Shown here in pieces: positions 54,320-64,000 of a DNA stretch of 64,000 bases. The position numbers and the translations under genes are program-made. The stretch comes from Streptomyces sp. NBC_01264 (GTDB taxonomy: Bacteria; Actinomycetota; Actinomycetes; Streptomycetales; Streptomycetaceae). The notes below the pieces were generated by a model. The model was not told the origin of the DNA. It was given only the letters and a program-made list of their open reading frames with translations, and made no database searches. The stretch is from the NCBI RefSeq assembly GCF_026340675.1, contig NZ_JAPEOX010000001.1, positions 2,480,001 through 2,544,000 on the forward strand. The letters run 5' to 3'. The first letter of the stretch is position 1. Each line of letters opens with the position of its first letter.

Positions 54320-56956
54320 CTACTTCTTCTTGGCGGCGGCCTTCTTGGCCGGGGCGCCCTCGGCGTTGCCGTAGTACGCCTGGCGCATCAGCTGCTTCAG
54401 GTCGTCGATCATCGGCATCCGCGGGTTGGCGGGGGCGCACTGGTCGGCGTAGGCGTTCATGGCCTGGGTCGGCAGGGCCTCGATGAAGGCCTGCTCGTCC
54501 ACGCCCTCCTCGGCGAAGGAGGAGGTGATCCCGCACTTGCTGCGGAGCTCCTCGACGGCCTTGGCGTAGGACTCGACGCCCTCGGCGGCCGTGGCGGCCG
54601 GCAGCCCCAGCATCTTCGCGATCTCCTGGAAGCGCTCCGGCGCCCGGTAGACCTCGGCCTTCGGCCACGGGGTGGCCTTGTGGGTGACCGTGCCGTTGTG
54701 ACGGATCACGTGCGGCAGGAGCAGCGCGTTGGTGCGGCCATGGGCGACGTGGAAGGTGTTGCCCAGGGTGTGCGCCATGGCGTGGACCATGCCCAGGAAG
54801 GCGTTGGCGAAGGCCATGCCCGCCACCGTGGAGGCGTTGTGCATCTTCTCGCGGGCCTCGGGGTCGTTCGGACCGTCGACCACGCAGCGCTGCAGGTTTT
54901 CGAAGATGAGCTTGATGGCCTGGAGGCACAGACCGTCGGTGTAGTCGTTCGAGTACGCGGAGACGTAGGCCTCGGTGGCGTGCGTCAGGGCGTCGAAGCC
55001 GGAGTCGGCGGTCACCTTGGGCGGGAGGCCCATCGGCAGCATCGGGTCGACGATGGCGACGTTCGGGGTCAGCGCGTAGTCGGCGAGCGGGTACTTCTGG
55101 GCCGCGGCCGGGTCGGAGATGACGGCGAACGGGGTGACCTCGGAGCCGGTGCCGGAGGTGGTCGGGATCGCGACCATCTTGGCCTTCTCGCCCAGCGAGG
55201 GGAACTTGTAGGCGCGCTTGCGGACGTCGAAGAACTTCTCCTTCGTGTCGGCGAACTCCACCTCCGGGCGCTCGTACATCAGCCACATGATCTTCGCGGC
55301 GTCCATCGGCGAGCCGCCGCCGAGGCCGATGATCGTGTCGGGCTCGAAGTCGCGCATCATCGCGGCGCCGGCCTGGACGGTGGAGAGCTCCGGGTTGGGC
55401 TCGACGTTGTCGATGATCTGGATCGACACGGCGCCCTCGCGGGCCTGCAGGATGTCGACGACCTTCTGCACGAAGCCGATGGAGACCATCGTCTTGTCGG
55501 TGACGATCGAGACGCGGCTGATGCCGTCCATCTCACCGAGGTAGCGGATGGAGTTGCGCTCGAAGTAGATCTTCGGCGGGACCTTGAACCACTGCATGTT
55601 GGTGTTGCGCCGTCCGATCCGCTTGACGTTGATCAGGTTGACCGCGGTGACGTTGTTCGACACCGAGTTGTGTCCGTACGAGCCGCAGCCCAGGGTGAGC
55701 GAGGGGAGGAAGGCGTTGTAGACGTCGCCGATGCCGCCGAAGGTGGAGGGCGAGTTGGCGATGACGCGGATCGCCTTGACCTTCTTGCCGAACTCCTCGA
55801 CGAGCTCCTCGTCCTCGGCGTGGATGGCGGCGCTGTGGCCCAGACCGTGGAACTCGACCATCGCGGCGGCCAGTTCGAGGCCGTGCTCGGTGTCGGAGGC
55901 CTTCAGGGCGGCCAGGATCGGGGACAGCTTCTCGCGGGTCAGCGGCTCGTTCTCGCCGACCTCGTTGCACTCCGCGAGGAGGATCGAGGCCTCGGCCGGG
56001 ACGGTGAATCCGGCCTGCTCGGCGATCCACTGCGGGGACTTGCCGACGACCGCCGGGTTCAGCTTGGCGCCGTTGGCGTCGGCCGCGTAGGCGGTGGTGC
56101 CGAAGACGAACTGCTCCAGCTTGGTCTTCTCGGCGGCGGAGACCACGTGGGCACCGAGCCGCTTGAACTCGGCGAGGCCCGCTTCGTAGATCTCGGTGTC
56201 GAGGATGACGGCCTGCTCGGAGGCGCAGATCATGCCGTTGTCGAAGGCCTTGGAGAGCACGATGTCGTGGATCGCGCGGCCGAGCTTGGCGCTCTTGTGG
56301 ACGTACGCGGGGACGTTGCCCGCGCCGACGCCCAGGGCCGGCTTGCCGCACGAGTACGCGGCCTTGACCATGGCGTTTCCGCCGGTCGCGAGGATGGTGG
56401 AGACGCCCGGGTGGTTCATGAGGGCTCCGGTGGCCTCCATGGAGGGGGCGGTGACCCACTGGACGCAGTCGGCGGGAGCGCCGGCGGCGACGGCGGCGTC
56501 GCGGACGATGCGGGCGGCCTCGGCCGAGCAGTTCTGCGCGGAGGGGTGGAAGGCGAAGATGATCGGGTTGCGGGTCTTCAGGGCGATCAGCGCCTTGAAG
56601 ATCGTGGTGGAGGTCGGGTTGGTGACCGGGGTCATCGCGCAGACGACGCCGACCGGCTCGGCGATCTCCGTGATGCCGTTCAGCTCGTCGCGGCGGATGA
56701 CGCCGGCGGTCTTGAGCCCGCGCATCGAGTTCACGACGTGCTCGCAGGCGAAGAGGTTCTTGACGGCCTTGTCCTCGAAGAGGCCGCGACCGGTCTCCTC
56801 GACCGCCAGCTGGGCGAGCTCGCCGTGCTGGCTGAGCGCGGCCAGCGAGGCCTTCTTGACGATGTGGTCGACCTGCTCCTGGTTGAACGACGAGAACTGG
56901 TCGAGCGCCTTGAGCGCCCCCTGGACCAGTCCATCCACCATCTCGTTCGCCTGCAT
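54320..56956 (-). CDS. adhE: bifunctional acetaldehyde-CoA/alcohol dehydrogenase AdhE
   Basis: The 878-aa protein fuses an aldehyde dehydrogenase half (catalytic Cys244 in NGMICASEQAV, matching the E. coli position) to an iron-dependent alcohol dehydrogenase half (GLGGGSPMDAAKIMW, IPTTSGTGSEVTPFAV, HATEAYVSAYS, HAMAHTLGNTFHVAHGRTNA with metal-binding His). It reduces acetyl-CoA to ethanol through acetaldehyde with two NADH. ATG 56956 follows AAGGAG. A perfect Rex operator about 190 bases upstream indicates induction when NADH is high, i.e. oxygen limitation. The end is a Lys-Ala tail (APAKKAAAKKK) not found in enteric AdhE. Confidence 0.96.
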   Translation of the reverse strand: MQANEMVDGLVQGALKALDQFSSFNQEQVDHIVKKASLAALSQHGELAQLAVEETGRGLFEDKAVKNLFACEHVVNSMRGLKTAGVIRRDELNGITEIAEPVGVVCAMTPVTNPTSTTIFKALIALKTRNPIIFAFHPSAQNCSAEAARIVRDAAVAAGAPADCVQWVTAPSMEATGALMNHPGVSTILATGGNAMVKAAYSCGKPALGVGAGNVPAYVHKSAKLGRAIHDIVLSKAFDNGMICASEQAVILDTEIYEAGLAEFKRLGAHVVSAAEKTKLEQFVFGTTAYAADANGAKLNPAVVGKSPQWIAEQAGFTVPAEASILLAECNEVGENEPLTREKLSPILAALKASDTEHGLELAAAMVEFHGLGHSAAIHAEDEELVEEFGKKVKAIRVIANSPSTFGGIGDVYNAFLPSLTLGCGSYGHNSVSNNVTAVNLINVKRIGRRNTNMQWFKVPPKIYFERNSIRYLGEMDGISRVSIVTDKTMVSIGFVQKVVDILQAREGAVSIQIIDNVEPNPELSTVQAGAAMMRDFEPDTIIGLGGGSPMDAAKIMWLMYERPEVEFADTKEKFFDVRKRAYKFPSLGEKAKMVAIPTTSGTGSEVTPFAVISDPAAAQKYPLADYALTPNVAIVDPMLPMGLPPKVTADSGFDALTHATEAYVSAYSNDYTDGLCLQAIKLIFENLQRCVVDGPNDPEAREKMHNASTVAGMAFANAFLGMVHAMAHTLGNTFHVAHGRTNALLLPHVIRHNGTVTHKATPWPKAEVYRAPERFQEIAKMLGLPAATAAEGVESYAKAVEELRSKCGITSSFAEEGVDEQAFIEALPTQAMNAYADQCAPANPRMPMIDDLKQLMRQAYYGNAEGAPAKKAAAKKK

Positions 56957-57070
56957 GGCAGGAACTCCTTCATTTCGACTCAACCTGAACCGCTTTCCTG
57001 ATGACTCAATTCGACACCCAAAAGCGGAAGCCGCGCCGCCGAAAAAGCCCTTATCCACCAGGTCGAAGTG

Positions 57071-57090
57071 CTGTTCACACCTGTTCACAC
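57071..57090. repeat. tandem CTGTTCACAC x2
   Basis: Two exact 10-base copies; each contains TTCACA, the Rex half-site, in the same orientation. They lie about 60 bases nearer adhE than the full Rex palindrome. Confidence 0.6.
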
Positions 57091-57256: not shown

Positions 57257-58159
57257 GTGCGCAGTCAGGTGCGCGTCGCGGACGGACGGAATCTGACGGT
57301 GGAGCGCTGGGGCGACCCGCACGGCAAACCCGTTTTCCTGCTCCACGGCATGCCCGGCAGCCGGCTGGGGCCCGCCCCGCGGGGCATGGTCCTCTACCAG
57401 CGCCGGATGCAGCTCATCGCCTACGACCGCCCCGGCTACGGGGGCTCCGACCGCCATCCGGGCCGTACCGTCGCCGACGTGGCCACGGAGGTGGCCGCGA
57501 TCGCCGACTCCCTGGGCCTGGACACCTTCGCCGTGGCCGGCCGCTCCGGCGGCGCCCCCGGCGCGCTGGCCTGCGCCGCCCTGCTCCCGCACCGGGTCAC
57601 CCGGACCGCGGCCCTGGTCTCCCTGGCCCCCCGGGACGCGGAGGACCTGGACTGGTTCGAGGGCATGTCCCCCTCGAACATCCGGGAGCACTCCACCGCC
57701 GGACGGGACCCCGAGGAGCTCGCCGCCCGGCTGATCCCGCGCGCCGCCGGGATCGCCGAGGACCCCGGCCGGCTCCTGGACGAGCTGCGCCGCGAGCTCA
57801 CCGACAGCGACCGCATGATCGTCGCCGACGCGGGGCTGCGGGCCATGCTGCTGCGCAATTACCGCGAGGGGGTCCGCACCTCCGCCTACGGCTGGATCGA
57901 CGACGCCATCTCCTTCAGCAGCCCCTGGGGCTTCGACCCGGCCGACATCCGCTGCCCGGTGCTGATCTGGCACGGCGAGCTCGACGTGTTCTCCCCCGTC
58001 GGCCACTCCCGCTGGCTGGCCGGCCGCATCCCGGGCGCCACCACGAACATCGACCCGGCCGCCGCGCACTTCGCGGCCCTGCGCGCCCTGCCCGACGTAC
58101 TGACGTGGCTGCTCAGGGAGGTGCCCGCACCTCCCCTCAACGAGCAGCAGCCGGCGTAG
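57257..58159 (+). CDS. alpha/beta-fold hydrolase
   Basis: The 300-aa protein has VFLLHGMPGSRLG (oxyanion loop), IAYDRPGYGGSDRHPGRTV, nucleophile Ser in VAGRSGGAPGALA, and a late acid VLIWHGELDVFSP; the catalytic His is probably in AAAHFAALR. GGGAGGGAG precedes GTG 57257. No signal peptide. Divergent from adhE across the Rex operator, so redox control is possible but unproven. Substrate unknown. Confidence 0.87.
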   Translation: MRSQVRVADGRNLTVERWGDPHGKPVFLLHGMPGSRLGPAPRGMVLYQRRMQLIAYDRPGYGGSDRHPGRTVADVATEVAAIADSLGLDTFAVAGRSGGAPGALACAALLPHRVTRTAALVSLAPRDAEDLDWFEGMSPSNIREHSTAGRDPEELAARLIPRAAGIAEDPGRLLDELRRELTDSDRMIVADAGLRAMLLRNYREGVRTSAYGWIDDAISFSSPWGFDPADIRCPVLIWHGELDVFSPVGHSRWLAGRIPGATTNIDPAAAHFAALRALPDVLTWLLREVPAPPLNEQQPA

Positions 58160-58728: not shown

Positions 58729-58893
58729 ATGAACACCTCCGCAACCCACCCGGCCAGCACCGTCACGGCCACCCGCGTCCCGCTCGACCGGATCGATGTC
58801 CGCGGTGCGCGCGCGGCCGCGACCCTGGGTCGCGTCCTCCCGACGGAATCCGGCCGAAAGGTTCAGACGCCCATCTTCAACTCTGCACTCTGA
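58729..58893 (+). CDS. fxsA: FxsA, FxSxx-COOH precursor-like peptide
   Basis: The 54-aa peptide from ATG 58729 (GAGGA upstream) ends in QTPIFNSAL, matching the defining F-x-S-x-x-COOH terminus. The body (TRVPLDRIDVRGARAAATLGRVLPTESGRKV) is a typical leader-like region. A longer start at 58684 is possible. The C-terminal Phe/Ser tail is the presumed site of modification by the radical SAM enzyme encoded 29 bases downstream. Mature structure and function are unknown. Confidence 0.88.
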   Translation: MNTSATHPASTVTATRVPLDRIDVRGARAAATLGRVLPTESGRKVQTPIFNSAL

Positions 58894-58922
58894 CGACTAA
58901 GTCGGAGCTCTAGACTGGTGGA

Positions 58923-61205
58923 ATGACCGGCCTGATCGCTTTTCGCGAGATCGTCCTGAAAGTTCACAGCAGATGCGATCTTGCTTGTGATCATTGCTAT
59001 GTCTACGAACACGCAGATCAGAGCTGGCGCGCCCGGCCGAAGGTGATCTCCCCCGAGGTGATCGCACAAACCGCGTCGCGGCTCGCCGAACACGCAAGGA
59101 CACACGCACTCCCCTCCGTCACGGTCATCCTTCACGGAGGGGAACCGCTTCTCGCGGGCACCGCCCGCCTCCGGCTCGTGTGCGAGGAATTCACCCGCGC
59201 CCTCGACGGCATCGCCGCCCTCGATCTGCGCATGCACACCAACGGCCTTCAGCTCAGCCGCCGTTACCTGGACCTCTTCGTGGAATTCGGCGTCAGCGTC
59301 AGCGTCTCCCTCGACGGGGACCGCGCGGCCAACGACCGCCACCGCCGCTTCGCCGACGGACGCACCAGCCACCCCCTGGTCCTGGCCGCCGTGGACCTCC
59401 TGCGCACCGAGCCCTACCGCCACCTCTACCAGGGCCTGCTCTGCACCATCGACGTGGCCAACGATCCCGTGGCCGTCCTCAACGCCCTCGTCGAACTTGC
59501 CCCGCCGCGCGTGGACTTCCTCCTCCCGCACGCCACCTGGCAGACGCCCCCGGTCCGCCCCGACGAGGCCCCCGACACCTACGCGCGCTGGCTGCTGCGG
59601 GTCTTCGACCACTGGGAGCGGCTCGGCCGCCCGGTCCCCGTACGGCTCTTCGACTCCCTGTTCTCCACCCTGGCCGGCGGTCCCAGCCTCACCGAGTCCC
59701 TCGGCCTCGCGCCCACCGATCTCGTCGTGGTGGAGACCGACGGGAACCTGGAGCAGGTCGACTCCCTGAAGAGCGCCTTCGAGGGGGCCGCCGCCACCGG
59801 GTTCAACGTCTTCGACCACGCCTTCGACCTGGTCGCCGCCCATCCCGGGGTCCGCGCCCGGCAACTGGGCCTGGCCGGCGTCAGCGACACGTGCCGCCGG
59901 TGCCCCGTCGTACGTTCGTGCGGCGGCGGGCTCTACACGCACCGCTACAAGGCCGCTCCGGGCGCGGAAGCCGCAGCGGAAGCCGCCGGGGACTTCGACA
60001 ACCCCTCGGTCTACTGCACCGACCTGCGCGAGCTCGTCGACGGCGTGGAGGGGCGTACGAGCACCCGCGCGAGCGCGCCGGAACTGTCCGACCCCACCGA
60101 GCTGGCCGCCGCCCAGGAGCAGCTCACCCGGGACCTGCTCGCCCTTCTGAACGACCGCCGCACGGGTGATTCCGACTGGGACCGGGCCTGGGGGGTGCTG
60201 GGCGCCGTGGAGCGGGCCGGGCGGGCGGGCGCGGACGCGCTGGACGCCGTACTGGCCCACCCCTTCACCCGGACCTGGGTCATGGCCTGCCTCGACCCCG
60301 CGCAGGCGGGCCCCGCCGCCCCGCAGGCGGCCCGCAGGCTGACCGCACTGGCCGCCGCCGCCGTGCTGCGCGGCCGGCTCGACCTGCCCGCCGAGGTGCT
60401 CTACCGGGACGGCGAGGTGTACCTGCCGACGCTCGGCCTGCTGCGCCTGGGCGAGCCCGGCACCGAAGGGCGGGCCGCGCTGCGCGCCGCCGACGGGGGG
60501 TACGCCGTCCGCGAGGAGGGCCGCGCCGAGCACCGCTTCGGGCCCGGTGCCAGTGACGCGCGCTGGCAGCCCGTACGCACCTGGTCGCCCGGGCCGGACG
60601 CGGCCCCGGTGGCGCTGGAGGACCTGGATCCGCACCGCAACTGCTTCGCCCGCCCGCCCAGGCTGCGGCTCGGCGCCGGGGAGGCCGAGGAGTGGCGGGG
60701 GCGCCTCGACGCGGCGTGGGCGCTGCTGCACGCCTCGGTGCCCGAGTTCGCGCGGGCGGCCGCCACCGGGCTGACCACGCTGACCCCGCTCGCGGGCGGT
60801 CCGCGGACCGCCGACTGGGGCGAGGCCGGGCGGCACGGTCCGGGCGCGCTCGGAGTGCCGTACGCGGCGGGGGTAGCGGAGACCGCGCTCGCGCTGCTGA
60901 CCGGGCGGCGGCGGGCCGGGCTCCAGGCGCTGACCGAGGTGGCCGACCTGTACGCGCTGGACGGGGAGTGGCAGCACCCCTCCCCGTGGCGCGAGCGCCC
61001 GGTCCCGGTGTCGCGGCTGCTGGCCGACGTCCACGAGCGGGTGGCCGTGGAGGCCTACCGGCGGGCCACCGCGGCGGCGGAGCCGGGCGGTCTCGACCGG
61101 ATCAACCGGGCGCTGGACCGGCTGTCGGGGGCGGCGGAGCTGACGAGCACCGGCAAGCGTCTCGTGGAGCAGCTCCGCTGGGAACTGAAGGCGGTCGACG
61201 CGTGA
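58923..61205 (+). CDS. fxsB: FxsB, radical SAM/SPASM peptide-modifying enzyme with HExxH-family C-terminus
   Basis: The radical SAM cluster is CDLACDHC (Cys18, 22, 25) followed by YVYEHADQSW; HGGEPLL is at 71-77. A SPASM-like set lies at Cys324, 327, 333 and 365 (CRRCPVVRSCGGGLYTHRY, SVYC). Residues about 420-760 align in pattern with the mod_HExxH family fused to many FxsB (late HPSPWRERPVPVSRLLADVHERVAVEAYRR), but where HExxH is expected I read AETAL (652-656), so that half has probably lost its metal site. The first 25 codons use AT-rich codons unlike the rest. ATG 58923; the end overlaps the next gene by GTGA. Confidence 0.92.
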   Translation: MTGLIAFREIVLKVHSRCDLACDHCYVYEHADQSWRARPKVISPEVIAQTASRLAEHARTHALPSVTVILHGGEPLLAGTARLRLVCEEFTRALDGIAALDLRMHTNGLQLSRRYLDLFVEFGVSVSVSLDGDRAANDRHRRFADGRTSHPLVLAAVDLLRTEPYRHLYQGLLCTIDVANDPVAVLNALVELAPPRVDFLLPHATWQTPPVRPDEAPDTYARWLLRVFDHWERLGRPVPVRLFDSLFSTLAGGPSLTESLGLAPTDLVVVETDGNLEQVDSLKSAFEGAAATGFNVFDHAFDLVAAHPGVRARQLGLAGVSDTCRRCPVVRSCGGGLYTHRYKAAPGAEAAAEAAGDFDNPSVYCTDLRELVDGVEGRTSTRASAPELSDPTELAAAQEQLTRDLLALLNDRRTGDSDWDRAWGVLGAVERAGRAGADALDAVLAHPFTRTWVMACLDPAQAGPAAPQAARRLTALAAAAVLRGRLDLPAEVLYRDGEVYLPTLGLLRLGEPGTEGRAALRAADGGYAVREEGRAEHRFGPGASDARWQPVRTWSPGPDAAPVALEDLDPHRNCFARPPRLRLGAGEAEEWRGRLDAAWALLHASVPEFARAAATGLTTLTPLAGGPRTADWGEAGRHGPGALGVPYAAGVAETALALLTGRRRAGLQALTEVADLYALDGEWQHPSPWRERPVPVSRLLADVHERVAVEAYRRATAAAEPGGLDRINRALDRLSGAAELTSTGKRLVEQLRWELKAVDA

Positions 61206-62053
61206 CGGGGGGCCCCGCCGGCCCCCTCCGGGGCCTCCCCGGCCCCCTCACCGGCCTCGCCGCCTCCCTCCGCGCCCTCGGTGTGCGCCCCGGCATGCGC
61301 CTCCTGGTGCACGCCTCGCTCCGCGGCACCGGCCTGCGCGCCGAGGAGCTGCGGGACGCCCTGCTCGCCGCCGTCGGGGCGGGCGGCACCCTCGCGGCGC
61401 CGGCCTTCACCCCGCAGAACTCCAAGTCCTCCACCGCGCACCTGGCACGGATCGCGGGCCTCTCCGAGGAGGGCGTACGGGCCTTTCGCGCGGGGATGCC
61501 CGCCTTCGATCCGGAGCACACCCCGAGCCACGGCATGGGGGTCCTCGCCGAGGCGGTGCGCACCGCCCCGGGAGCGGCCCGCAGCGGGCATCCGCAGACC
61601 TCTTTCGCCGCGGTCGGCGCAGGTGCCCGGGAACTGTGTGCGGGGCACCCGCTGACCAGCCATTTGGGTGAGGAATCACCCCTGGGAAAGATGTGCTGGG
61701 AGGGGTGGAAGGTACTCATGATCAATGTGGGATTTTCCGTATGCACCGCTTTCCATCTCGCGGAGTATCGAATTCCGAAGCCCCCCTTGCGCATGTACGA
61801 GTGTGTGGTGAAGGTGAACCTTCCGGGGTCTTCAGGGGGGCAGCCCTGTCACGGAAAAGAGGCGCCTAAGCGGGAAGGGTGGACCGCGTACGAGGACATC
61901 GCGCTGGATGACAGCGATTTCGCCGAGATCGGCAGGGCGTTCCCGGAAGACCGGATGCGCCGGGGGTGGATCGGCGGAGCATCGACCATGCTCTTCGCCC
62001 TTCCGCATGCCGTCGATCACGCGCTTGAATGGATGACCGAAAACAGACGCTGA
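61202..62053 (+). CDS. aminoglycoside N3-acetyltransferase family protein
   Basis: The 283-aa protein has the AAC(3) landmarks RLLVHASLRGTGL, GTLAAPAFT, SHGMGVLAEAVR, RSGHPQTSFAAVG, HPLTSHLGEESPLGKM and VGFSVCTAFHLAEYR (catalytic His region). It starts at a GTG overlapping the fxsB stop, so it is translationally coupled in a peptide-modification cluster rather than standing in a resistance context. An acetyl-CoA-dependent step on the peptide product is one possibility; aminoglycoside acetylation is the other. A patch near 61680-61870 is AT-richer than the rest. Confidence 0.88.
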   Translation: MTGGPAGPLRGLPGPLTGLAASLRALGVRPGMRLLVHASLRGTGLRAEELRDALLAAVGAGGTLAAPAFTPQNSKSSTAHLARIAGLSEEGVRAFRAGMPAFDPEHTPSHGMGVLAEAVRTAPGAARSGHPQTSFAAVGAGARELCAGHPLTSHLGEESPLGKMCWEGWKVLMINVGFSVCTAFHLAEYRIPKPPLRMYECVVKVNLPGSSGGQPCHGKEAPKREGWTAYEDIALDDSDFAEIGRAFPEDRMRRGWIGGASTMLFALPHAVDHALEWMTENRR

Positions 62054-62132
62054 TTGACTGAACGATGAGGGGATGTGGCGGAGCAGCTCCGGAATGATGT
62101 TTCTTCGCTCGCATCTTCGGGACGGGGGTCGT

Positions 62133-63524
62133 GTGCCCGCATCAGTGCAGCCGTACTTTTTTCTCAGTTATGCGCATACACCGAGGTTCGGGGCGGGAGG
62201 ACCAGACCCGGACATGTGGGTGGAGCGGCTTTTCCGCGACCTCTGCAGCCATGTCATGGCACTGACGAACCTGCCCGCGGGAGCCGAGGCCGGCTTCATG
62301 GACCGGGAGATACGCAGCGGTGAGGGCTGGTCGGAACGACTCGGGGCGGCTCTCGCCACCTGCCGGGTCTTCGTCCCCCTGTTCTCGCCGCGCTACTTCG
62401 CCAGCGAGATGTGCGGGAAGGAATGGTTCGCCTTCGCGCAGCGCACCATCCACCACGTGGCACTCAGCAATCAGCCCGCCGAGGCCATCGTTCCCGCGTT
62501 ATGGGTGCCGGTACCGCCCTCCCAACTACCCCTTCCCGCCGAGCGGTTGCAGTTCAACCACAACACCTTCGGCGAGCGGTACGTCACCGACGGGCTCTAC
62601 GGCCTGATCAAACTGCGGGGCTACGCCGAGCAGTACGAGAGCGCCGTGTACGAACTCGCCAAACGGATCGTCCGGGTCGCCGAGACCGTCCGGCTCGACC
62701 CGATCCGGCCGCTCGACTACCGCCTCGTGCCCAGCGCCTTCGGCTCCCCGGGCAGCACTCCCGGGCCCACCGCCCGCACCCTGCACGTCACCGTGGCCGC
62801 CGCCTCCCGGCACGATCTGCCCGAGGGCCGCAGCCCCGAGTACTACGGGGACAGCGCGCTGGACTGGAACCCGTACCACCCGGTCTCCCAACGGCCCATC
62901 GCCTACGTGGCCGAGGACCTGGTCCGCAACCTCAACTACCAGACGACGGTGGGCTCGTTCGACGACGAGGCCGGTCACTTCGACTCCAAACAGCCGCCGA
63001 CCCGGCCCGAGATCCTCATCGTGGACCGGTGGGCGGTGGAGGACGAGCAGCGCCGGCAGCGCCTGGCCGCCTTCGACCAGGAGTCCCGGCCGTGGATCAA
63101 CGTGGTCGTGCCGTGGAACCGGTACGACCACCAGAGCCGCGCGAAGGAGAGCGAGCTGGCCCACCGGCTCGAGGACACCATGCCCGTCAAGATGAGCCAG
63201 GGCCGGGCCGCCTGCCGGGCCGCCGCCAACGGCGTGGCCAACATGGAGACGCTCGGGCAGATCCTGCCGCAGGTGGTCGAGGCCGCCGCCCAGCAGTTCC
63301 TCAGACACGCCCAGGTCTATCCACCGGCCGGCAGCCCCGCCGCCGGAACCGAACGGCCCCGGCTGCTCGGTCCGATGGGGATGAACGGGCCGCCGGCTCC
63401 ACCACCGGCCCCCTTCCCGCCCACCGTGGGCGACACGGGCGACGGCTCCGGGCCGAGCGAGCGGGCCGGACTCACCGACAGCAACGACAACGACCGGGGG
63501 GACGCGGATGACATCGAGTCGTGA
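62133..63524 (+). CDS. fxsC: FxsC, TIR-like FxSxx-COOH system protein
   Basis: The 463-aa protein begins VPASVQPYFFLSYAHTP, a TIR-like first strand, followed by VERLFRDLCSHV, VFVPLFSPRYFASEMCGKEW and a C-terminal half (TLHVTVAAASRHDLP..., DWNPYHPVSQRPIAYVAEDLV..., INVVVPWNRYD) seen in FxsC proteins, ending in a Pro/Asp-rich tail. GTG 62133 is chosen after a G-rich ribosome site. A TTA leucine codon occurs at 62499-62501, suggesting dependence on the bldA tRNA. TIR-like folds can bind or cleave NAD+; the activity here is untested. Overlaps fxsT by 17 bases. Confidence 0.88.
   Translation: MPASVQPYFFLSYAHTPRFGAGGPDPDMWVERLFRDLCSHVMALTNLPAGAEAGFMDREIRSGEGWSERLGAALATCRVFVPLFSPRYFASEMCGKEWFAFAQRTIHHVALSNQPAEAIVPALWVPVPPSQLPLPAERLQFNHNTFGERYVTDGLYGLIKLRGYAEQYESAVYELAKRIVRVAETVRLDPIRPLDYRLVPSAFGSPGSTPGPTARTLHVTVAAASRHDLPEGRSPEYYGDSALDWNPYHPVSQRPIAYVAEDLVRNLNYQTTVGSFDDEAGHFDSKQPPTRPEILIVDRWAVEDEQRRQRLAAFDQESRPWINVVVPWNRYDHQSRAKESELAHRLEDTMPVKMSQGRAACRAAANGVANMETLGQILPQVVEAAAQQFLRHAQVYPPAGSPAAGTERPRLLGPMGMNGPPAPPPAPFPPTVGDTGDGSGPSERAGLTDSNDNDRGDADDIES
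62499..62501 (+). promoter_or_regulatory. TTA codon in fxsC (possible bldA control)
   Basis: In-frame TTA within the segment for IVPALWVPVP. TTA codons are rare in streptomycetes and make translation depend on the developmentally regulated bldA leucyl-tRNA. Confidence 0.75.
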
Positions 63525-64000
63525 CAGCCAGAGCCATGACAGCCAGCACGACAGCCGTGACGAGCACCGCGAGGGGCGCATCGTCACCTTCTACTCCTAC
63601 AAGGGCGGCACCGGCCGCACGATGGCACTGGCCAACACCGCCTGGATCCTCGCCGCCAACGGCAAGCGGGTCCTCGCGGTGGACTGGGACCTGGAGGCTC
63701 CCGGCCTGCACCGCTTCTTCCACCCCTTCCTGGACCCCTCCACCCTCGGCGCCACCACCGGGGTCATCGACCTGATCAGCGAGTACGCGTGGGCGGCCAC
63801 CAGCCCGGTGCAGCGCGCCGACGACTGGCACAAGGACTACGCGCGGATCCAGCCGCACGCCGTCTCGCTCACCCCCGAGACCCTCGGCTGGGAGTTCCCC
63901 GACGGCGGGACCCTCGACTTCGTCTCGGCGGGCCGGCAGAACCGCGAGTACTCGGCGACCGTCTCGACCTTCGACTGGGACAACTTCTACGACCGCCTCG
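63508..64000 (+). CDS. fxsT: FxsT, ParA-like/TPR FxSxx-COOH system protein, 3' partial
   Basis: ATG 63508 (GGGGGGAC upstream) opens a frame that runs to the window end and overlaps fxsC by 17 bases. After a hydrophilic start (MTSSRDSQSHDSQHDSRDEH) comes IVTFYSYKGGTGRTMALANTAW, a deviant Walker A of ParA/MinD type, and VLAVDWDLEAPGLHRFF (switch region). Complete FxsT proteins continue with an NTPase and tetratricopeptide repeats, which lie beyond the edge. Identification rests on the N-terminal domain plus its place after fxsC. Confidence 0.85.
   Translation, partial: MTSSRDSQSHDSQHDSRDEHREGRIVTFYSYKGGTGRTMALANTAWILAANGKRVLAVDWDLEAPGLHRFFHPFLDPSTLGATTGVIDLISEYAWAATSPVQRADDWHKDYARIQPHAVSLTPETLGWEFPDGGTLDFVSAGRQNREYSATVSTFDWDNFYDRL

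Follow-up and report, generated by a model that had tools for sequence, protein, structure and literature searches.

To what end does a Streptomyces operon combine a short peptide, terminating in Phe-Asn-Ser-Ala-Leu, with a radical S-adenosylmethionine (radical SAM) enzyme and a relative of the aminoglycoside acetyltransferases? The question is raised by the fxs locus at the edge of a 64-kb window, the whole stretch of DNA analysed here (bases 2480001-2544000 on contig 1 of the 10.67-Mb genome of Streptomyces sp. NBC_01264). A sequence-only reading had placed five genes at this locus, encoding a peptide ending FNSAL, a radical SAM/SPASM enzyme, an AAC(3)-family acetyltransferase, a TIR-like protein and a ParA-like protein, and profile matches recover all five.

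The best explanation of the cluster as a whole, to which we assign a probability of roughly 0.5, is a peptide-set conflict device resembling the nucleotide-binding, leucine-rich repeat (NLR) receptors. That it is an intracellular conflict-type device of some kind appears likely on balance, and we share the earlier judgement that a conflict or signalling device is a likelier interpretation than an ordinary metabolite pathway. The features that carry this reading are legible in the sequences themselves: the gene set, a pseudoenzyme, a catalytic-type Glu in the FxsC TIR domain, conserved P-loops, genomic linkage and gene fusions.

A complete FxSxx-COOH locus with additional partners

The products of fxsA, fxsB, fxsC and fxsT, encoded in that order, all score above the curated NCBIfam cut-offs (Table 1), and the locus belongs, as a complete example, to the standalone FxSxx-COOH type (TIGR04268, TIGR04269, NF040588/TIGR04276, NF040586), with the same four proteins in the same order. 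It differs from the described system in possessing an AAC(3) gene between fxsB and fxsC, a linked alpha/beta-hydrolase gene, SLATT and SLOG genes, and an inactivated HExxH domain in FxsB, the last being itself a form known to NCBIfam (NF040587). The cluster had been called complete-looking, but positions 58729-64000 do not contain all of it: the hydrolase, SLATT and SLOG genes, which by their conserved linkage belong with the cluster, lie outside. Similarly, the 'ParA-like protein' does have a MinD-like N-terminus, but this is only the start of a 1338-residue NB-ARC/TPR protein. The genes are tightly packed, with overlaps of 4 nucleotides (nt) between fxsB and the AAC(3) gene, 17 nt between fxsC and fxsT and 4 nt between fxsT and the SLATT gene, while gaps of 29 nt (fxsA-fxsB) and 19 nt (AAC(3)-fxsC) render the description 'nearly all translationally coupled' slightly generous. 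Eight proteins were run against Pfam and NCBIfam, the remaining open reading frames (ORFs) being judged by eye. The nearest named relatives of the locus (L122-L124) are all from Streptomyces, their FxsB radical SAM domains being 93-95% identical to that of this strain.

The radical SAM maturase and the FxSxx tail

Of 156 loci, 141 (126 distinct) have an ORF with the ending F-x-S-x-x-COOH just upstream of fxsB. The F and S of this tail were fixed by the search pattern; around them, it is mostly F-(N/S/Q/D)-S-(A/S)-(L/I/V)-COOH, with N/S/Q/D at position -4, A/S at -2 and L/I/V at -1. FxsB has a fused two-domain architecture homologous to the ChlBH type, as indicated by its match to NF040587 and by two solved chains: the ChlB radical SAM domain (9gm3), matched by the radical SAM part at 3.4e-72, and 22nu, another chain annotated as radical SAM, matched by the C-terminal part at 2.6e-25.

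We take the family IPR026335 to be the FxsB family. NCBIfam already describes FxsB as cyclophane-forming. Within IPR026335, the triceptide maturase MscB joins C4 of Phe to the beta-carbon of Ser (Nguyen 2020, via the review PMC11002830), the same Phe-Ser cross-link that is envisaged here; conflict-type partner genes do not figure in the account of MscB cited. ChlBH, a radical SAM-fused HExxH protein, beta-hydroxylates once the cyclophane is in place (Morishita 2024, via PMC12636437); FxsB shares its fused architecture and radical SAM part, but the metal ligands of the HExxH domain have been lost. In the FxsB of this strain, Thr-Gly occupies the HE positions and Arg that of the second His; with the column of a further His, invariant among motif-bearing sequences, the site reads Thr, Gly, Arg and Arg. 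Across an alignment of 36 sequences with the motif and 112 without it, both HExxH His and the further His are kept in 0 of the 112 lost-group sequences and the Glu in 1. The hydroxylase half is, as judged from this alignment, a conserved pseudoenzyme. Because the metal ligands are lost, a cyclophane without beta-hydroxylation is expected, and by analogy with its relatives FxsA very probably carries a Phe-Ser cyclophane.

The proposal that FxsB acts on the Phe/Ser tail agrees with this family evidence. The accompanying statement that neither product nor function had been shown requires amendment as to chemistry, given the MscB cyclophane and the NCBI cyclophane naming, and stands as to biology, the literature searched having yielded no experimental biological role for the fxs system, FxsA or FxsB.

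FxsB-family matches above the cut-off occur in 122 of the 197 genomes sampled from the order. A second FxsB class, at about 420-470 bits and mostly unfused, is common in the order; among the matches listed, FxsB rows below 500 bits (21 weaker rows and one of 472 bits) never have the hydrolase nearby.

The AAC(3)-family acetyltransferase

Gene neighbourhoods were compared in 80 named loci, the best by similarity and hence biased towards close relatives, of which 69 have at least 8 kb downstream of fxsB: 53 'lost-type', in which FxsB is without the HExxH motif, and 16 'active-type', in which the motif is kept. An AAC(3) gene lies directly downstream of fxsB in 42 of the 69 (31/53 lost-type and 11/16 active-type), so that the proposed check, whether the gene is adjacent only in this strain, leaves the association standing. 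A strain-specific insertion is ruled out by these neighbourhoods in many strains; replacement of the lost hydroxylase by the acetyltransferase is likewise ruled out, as the gene also accompanies an active HExxH motif, both in the 11 active-type loci and in HEFLH fusions.

Forty-eight genomes of the order sample carry a lost-HExxH FxsB above the cut-off, 26 with AAC(3) inside the cluster and 22 without. An AAC(3) gene of a distinct clade ('trans') is present elsewhere in 20 of these 22, which rules out true absence for them and brings the genomes with AAC(3), either in cis or in trans, to 46 of 48; this count leaves out paralogues with weaker scores (about 120-165 bits), which are common across genomes. 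Among the 26 in-cluster genomes none was found with both in-cluster and trans-clade copies. The other two genomes are G177 and G143, the latter having AAC(3) in two other fxs clusters. A further genome, G142, has a trans AAC(3) gene plus a decayed fxs locus on another contig (L097, G142:C10:201500-221400). The decayed locus keeps SLOG, SLATT and the radical SAM part, its C-terminal part scores only 50 bits, and neither fxsC nor fxsT was found in that stretch; the trans AAC(3) gene, located elsewhere in the genome, is still present.

In a tree of 71 AAC(3) rows (two short L068 pieces left out), 21 of 23 standalone rows group together in a single clade, with support 95/87, beside two in-cluster copies; standalone rows L110 and L111 fall elsewhere, and background rows L114-L118 lie outside the trans clade. 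In L191 and L200, two clusters with an active HExxH motif, an AAC(3) gene lies after fxsT on the opposite strand (about 18.7-20.6 kb, - strand); a quick second tree placed both genes inside that clade, and trans-clade AAC(3) therefore also occurs beside fxs. Of the trans sites (L082-L103), 20 were mapped, and all of these but L100 (19 of 20) have neighbours in common; mapping failed for L098. The adjoining genes are presumably YigZ-like and exonuclease-like. The pattern looks like relocation of AAC(3) out of the cluster with retention, and since the trans copies form one clade of shared ancestry, the events behind the cis/trans count are not independent of one another, and the Fisher value obtained for it cannot be taken as a fair probability.

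A genus sample of 392 genomes, partly shared with the order sample, yielded a trans-type AAC(3) match (at least 310 bits) in 39, the genomic context having been fetched for a minority. In thirty of these carriers the C-terminal domain of lost-type FxsB was matched at 1e-100 or better, and in a further five the match to the FxsB radical SAM domain reaches at least 570 bits: G142 (decayed), G465 and G391 (both at a contig end), G423, and G245, whose trans-type AAC(3) gene lies 9 kb from an fxsB. The survey weakened the notion that trans AAC(3) is strictly tied to an intact fxs cluster. In the present strain, a second and distant AAC(3)-family gene (G000:C1:1310941-1311486, L118) scores 88.6 bits against the cluster copy.

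Gene fusions place the acetyltransferase close to the maturase. In L041 the radical SAM domain, the pseudo-HExxH domain and AAC(3) occupy one 1003-codon frame, and in L108, L112 and L113 an HExxH domain (HEFLH) is fused to AAC(3), with a separate radical SAM gene adjoining. The protein has the Antibiotic_NAT superfamily profile and fold with conserved family residues, including three His positions invariant in 105 of 105 distinct sequences; it thus shares fold and motifs with FrbF, YokD and the AAC(3) acetyltransferases. It differs in its score against AAC_3 (NF033082), 135 bits where the cut-off is 270, and in a genomic context and fusions that point to peptide maturation. By sequence its nearest solved relative is FrbF (2.1e-40), which we take not to be a resistance enzyme. 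On these grounds AAC(3) quite probably works with the maturase or the peptide, and we read its role as that of a putative peptide-maturation partner rather than an aminoglycoside-resistance enzyme. The acetyltransferase had been suggested to act on the product or to provide immunity; it does appear to be part of the system, with immunity the weaker option because its relatives are fused to maturase domains and the AAC_3 cut-off is not reached.

Linked hydrolase, SLATT and SLOG genes

Residues Ser97, Asp243 and His271 of the alpha/beta-hydrolase are present in 129 of 129 distinct sequences, that of this strain included. The closest solved chains are pimeloyl-ACP methyl ester carboxylesterase and then proline iminopeptidase; a peptidase or esterase step is possible, making the protein a candidate for the missing peptidase of the cluster. 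Proximity to fxsB was assessed against the first 110 FxsB rows. Of 51 hydrolase matches of at least 380 bits, 50 lie within 12 kb of fxsB, the remaining one (G091) being on another contig of a fragmented assembly; at lower scores, among the matches listed, the figures are 18/32 at 300-380 bits, 9/9 at 250-300 bits and 0/8 below. Conversely, 75 of 88 FxsB matches of at least 500 bits have a hydrolase nearby, again among the matches listed. Fourteen genomes hold several strong fxsB rows, and in five of them (G003, G013, G079, G166, G193) every copy has its hydrolase. The linkage is found with both orientations of the block and spans two families of the order.

All 48 SLATT matches of at least 200 bits lie no more than 12 kb from an fxsB, as do 3 of the 9 below 200 bits, and the pairing recurs in two orientations and in rearranged clusters. 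In the 68 of the 80 named loci with enough flanking sequence (52 lost-type, 16 active-type), SLATT and SLOG are each present in 48 of the 52 lost-type loci. The SLOG-fold ORF had no Pfam or NCBIfam match; its orthologue in L122 was modelled with a SLOG fold (predicted local distance difference test score, pLDDT, 94.5), with YpsA (2nx2, E 3.9e-9) and DprA among the top structural matches and LOG matched as well.

FxsC and FxsT

FxsC comprises a TIR domain, in which the fold is present and the catalytic-type Glu is kept, and a C-terminal alpha/beta domain, for which fold comparison gave only middling flavodoxin- or receiver-like matches and for which we claim no function. FxsT joins MinD-like (AAA_KGGVGR, 147 bits), TIR (TIR_2), NB-ARC (1.1e-8) and TPR regions in one 1338-residue protein. 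Its P-loop G-x-GG-x-GK(T/S) occurs in 135 of 139 sequences and KGG(T/C)GRT in 129 of 129. The earlier suggestion of a sensing or effector arm is supported by this NB-ARC/TPR architecture together with the FxsC TIR domain and its catalytic-type Glu.

Gene layout and surroundings

Table 1. Coordinates of the cluster genes and domains. Positions are those of the window unless prefixed by L001 or G000.
Feature	Position	Strand	Profile matches and remarks
alpha/beta-hydrolase	57257..58159	+	Pfam Abhydrolase_1 3.3e-17; upstream of fxsA
fxsA precursor peptide	58729..58893	+	54 aa, C-terminus FNSAL; TIGR04268 33.5 bits (cut-off 28)
fxsB radical SAM/SPASM maturase	58923..61205	+	760 aa; TIGR04269 566 bits (cut-off 370); NF040587 407 bits (cut-off 225)
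fxsB radical SAM part	aa 7-376 = 58941-60050	+	
fxsB inactivated HExxH domain	aa 385-755 = 60075-61187	+	
AAC(3)-family acetyltransferase	61202..62053	+	283 aa; Pfam Antibiotic_NAT (PF02522) 8.7e-62
fxsC	62073..63524	+	NF040588 234 bits (cut-off 130); TIGR04276 222 bits (cut-off 55); TIR_2 1.1e-8
fxsT, first 164 codons inside window	63508..64000	+	whole gene 1338 aa
fxsT end, past window edge	L001 11025 = G000:C1:2547524	+	NF040586 1059 bits, above cut-off
SLATT gene, past window edge	L001 11022-12014	+	PF18184 (SLATT_3) 9.5e-37 and PF18181 (SLATT_1) 3.1e-38 in one protein
SLOG-fold gene, past window edge	L001 12034-12555	-	173-codon ORF, convergent to SLATT gene

The fxs block is inverted between the hydrolase and SLATT/SLOG in the clade of this strain relative to most compared relatives (L001 7009-12555; L002-L081, L122-L201). 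On the other side of the hydrolase, a bifunctional AdhE-like aldehyde/alcohol dehydrogenase gene (54320-57088, - strand, named by eye) adjoins the cluster and was found in 10 of the compared loci. Beyond SLOG (L001 12631-15595, - strand), two genes for secreted serine protease-like proteins, streptogrisin-like by eye, surround a DUF1684-like gene, also named by eye; relatives of the first protease occur at 74 of the compared fxs loci and relatives of the DUF1684-like gene at 57.

Proposed mechanism

In the mechanism we favour, FxsB would link the Phe ring to the beta-carbon of Ser within the F-N-S of FxsA, as shown for its relative, to give a three-residue cyclophane at the free C-terminus, with the dead HExxH domain probably retained as a scaffold on which the peptide or its partners are held. 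AAC(3), acting with FxsB, may then acetylate an amino group of the modified FxsA, possibly the N-terminus, and the alpha/beta-hydrolase may cut or trim it. The mature peptide would remain intracellular and serve FxsT as ligand or keeper, FxsT being a receptor of the signal transduction ATPases with numerous domains (STAND) class through its NB-ARC/TPR architecture. With FxsT released or triggered, the FxsC TIR domain would act on nicotinamide adenine dinucleotide (NAD) and the SLATT membrane protein would permeabilise the cell, SLOG serving as a nucleotide-ligand sensor or brake.

A fuller scheme is tentative and, taken as a whole, rather doubtful: an NLR-type receptor, triggered or held safe by a ribosomal peptide with a C-terminal Phe-Ser cyclophane, would command an NAD-signal relay of the Thoeris kind. 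FxsT would sense the state of FxsA, FxsC would make a nucleotide signal and SLOG would gate a dedicated SLATT pore, while peptide maturation would have drawn in an antibiotic-acetyltransferase fold and an alpha/beta-hydrolase, both acting around a dead hydroxylase kept as scaffold.

Relation to known systems

Thoeris-like relays of TIR plus SLOG, and SLATT effectors, resemble the present locus in that a TIR domain, a SLOG fold and a membrane protein are neighbours; here, by contrast, no SIR2 was seen, SLOG and SLATT are separate proteins, and a STAND receptor and a ribosomally synthesized and post-translationally modified peptide (RiPP) are added. The effector role of SLATT is itself a prediction (PMC7159879). 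Intracellular anti-phage lanthipeptides offer a precedent for a RiPP that acts inside the cell against phage, though with other chemistry and, as described there, other partner genes (PMC12360287). Comparison with PADLOC-DB 2023 gave only partial matches, of pVip to the radical SAM part and PDC-M28B to the MinD-like part, and MoxR AAA+ and vWA proteins (VMAP-ternary) had no match among the eight proteins run against Pfam and NCBIfam.

The closest description is that of Kaur et al. 2020 (PMC7159879), who reported FxSxx peptides together with radical SAM enzymes and AP-ATPases; one of the forms they describe is standalone and has an inactive MinD domain. The present locus shares with it the FxSxx peptide, the radical SAM/SPASM enzyme, an AP-ATPase with TIR and TPR, and the MinD-like domain; the zincin domain, a peptidase in their description, has a fold since recognized as that of a hydroxylase and is inactive in this locus. 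Their main text nowhere contains the string AAC, and those SLATT/SLOG mentions that were examined, 12 of 20, are not about the FxSxx type. As neither this text nor the literature searched gave such a link, the acetyltransferase, hydrolase and SLATT/SLOG associations appear to be new within that literature, while the FxSxx families, the cyclophane and the FxSxx/radical SAM/AP-ATPase association with a MinD-like domain are already known.

Alternative explanations

Triceptide-type RiPPs share the same chemistry (PMC11002830), and a role as toxin or signal was put forward for the processed peptide by Kaur et al. (PMC7159879). FxsA might accordingly give rise to an exported signal or antimicrobial peptide, with AAC(3) providing self-immunity or tailoring and FxsC, FxsT and SLATT providing regulation. 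This we consider unlikely: the co-conserved partners are STAND, TIR, SLATT and SLOG proteins, and no exporter was found among the eight proteins run against Pfam and NCBIfam, the other ORFs having been judged by eye and the search confined to this locus. Streptomyces make aminoglycosides, and this, with the Antibiotic_NAT fold and its conserved family residues, would suit an acetyltransferase devoted to aminoglycoside resistance or detoxification and present in the operon by chance. Such an origin is very unlikely in view of the AAC_3 score at half the cut-off, a closest solved relative, FrbF, that we presume not to confer resistance, and the recurrent position, the fusions and the cis-or-trans pattern of the gene.

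The linkage of hydrolase, SLATT and SLOG could instead reflect in part a static Streptomycetaceae neighbourhood, the device proper being fxsA-B-C-T alone and its function development or stress signalling, not defence. The serine-protease and DUF1684-like genes beyond SLOG follow the same inversion, moving in step with it, and so the neighbourhood is old; some fxs copies, moreover, occur without the hydrolase. Set against this are the five of 14 multi-copy genomes in which every strong fxsB copy has its hydrolase, the unbroken association of the stronger SLATT matches with fxsB, and the fact that SLATT and SLOG follow rearranged clusters (L112, L113, L073), which together leave this explanation distinctly unlikely.

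The conflict-device reading has, nonetheless, a number of observations against it. No match to a whole known defence system was found in PADLOC-DB 2023. Judged against the FxsC motif, the helix position at which the TIR domain of FxsT (aa about 346-490) should carry its Glu has no majority Glu across 130 sequences, and the next column to be considered has Glu in 58 of them; this TIR domain may be a scaffold. AAC(3) is missing from several active-HExxH clusters, and is therefore not needed in every fxs system, while 4 of the 39 trans carriers in the genus sample are without a strong FxsB (three have weaker FxsB-family matches and one has none). Among the middling hydrolase matches of 300-380 bits, 14 of 32 lie away from the compared fxsB rows, although a weak FxsB near some of these 14 may have been missed, and in 9 of the 14 multi-copy genomes at least one fxsB copy, in some cases near a contig end, has no hydrolase. 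SLATT and SLOG are each missing in 4 of 52 lost-type loci, and of the 16 active-type loci 8 lack SLATT and all 16 lack SLOG. The linkage may in part be one inherited neighbourhood.

Conclusions

The additional parts recognized here turn the FxSxx-COOH cluster into a testable set, consisting of defined genes, a predicted small covalent change to a peptide, a candidate reader and two candidate effectors. If the peptide-set conflict device is real, it would connect the chemistry of peptide natural products with bacterial immunity of the NLR type, and a fold familiar from drug-inactivating enzymes would gain a role in peptide maturation.

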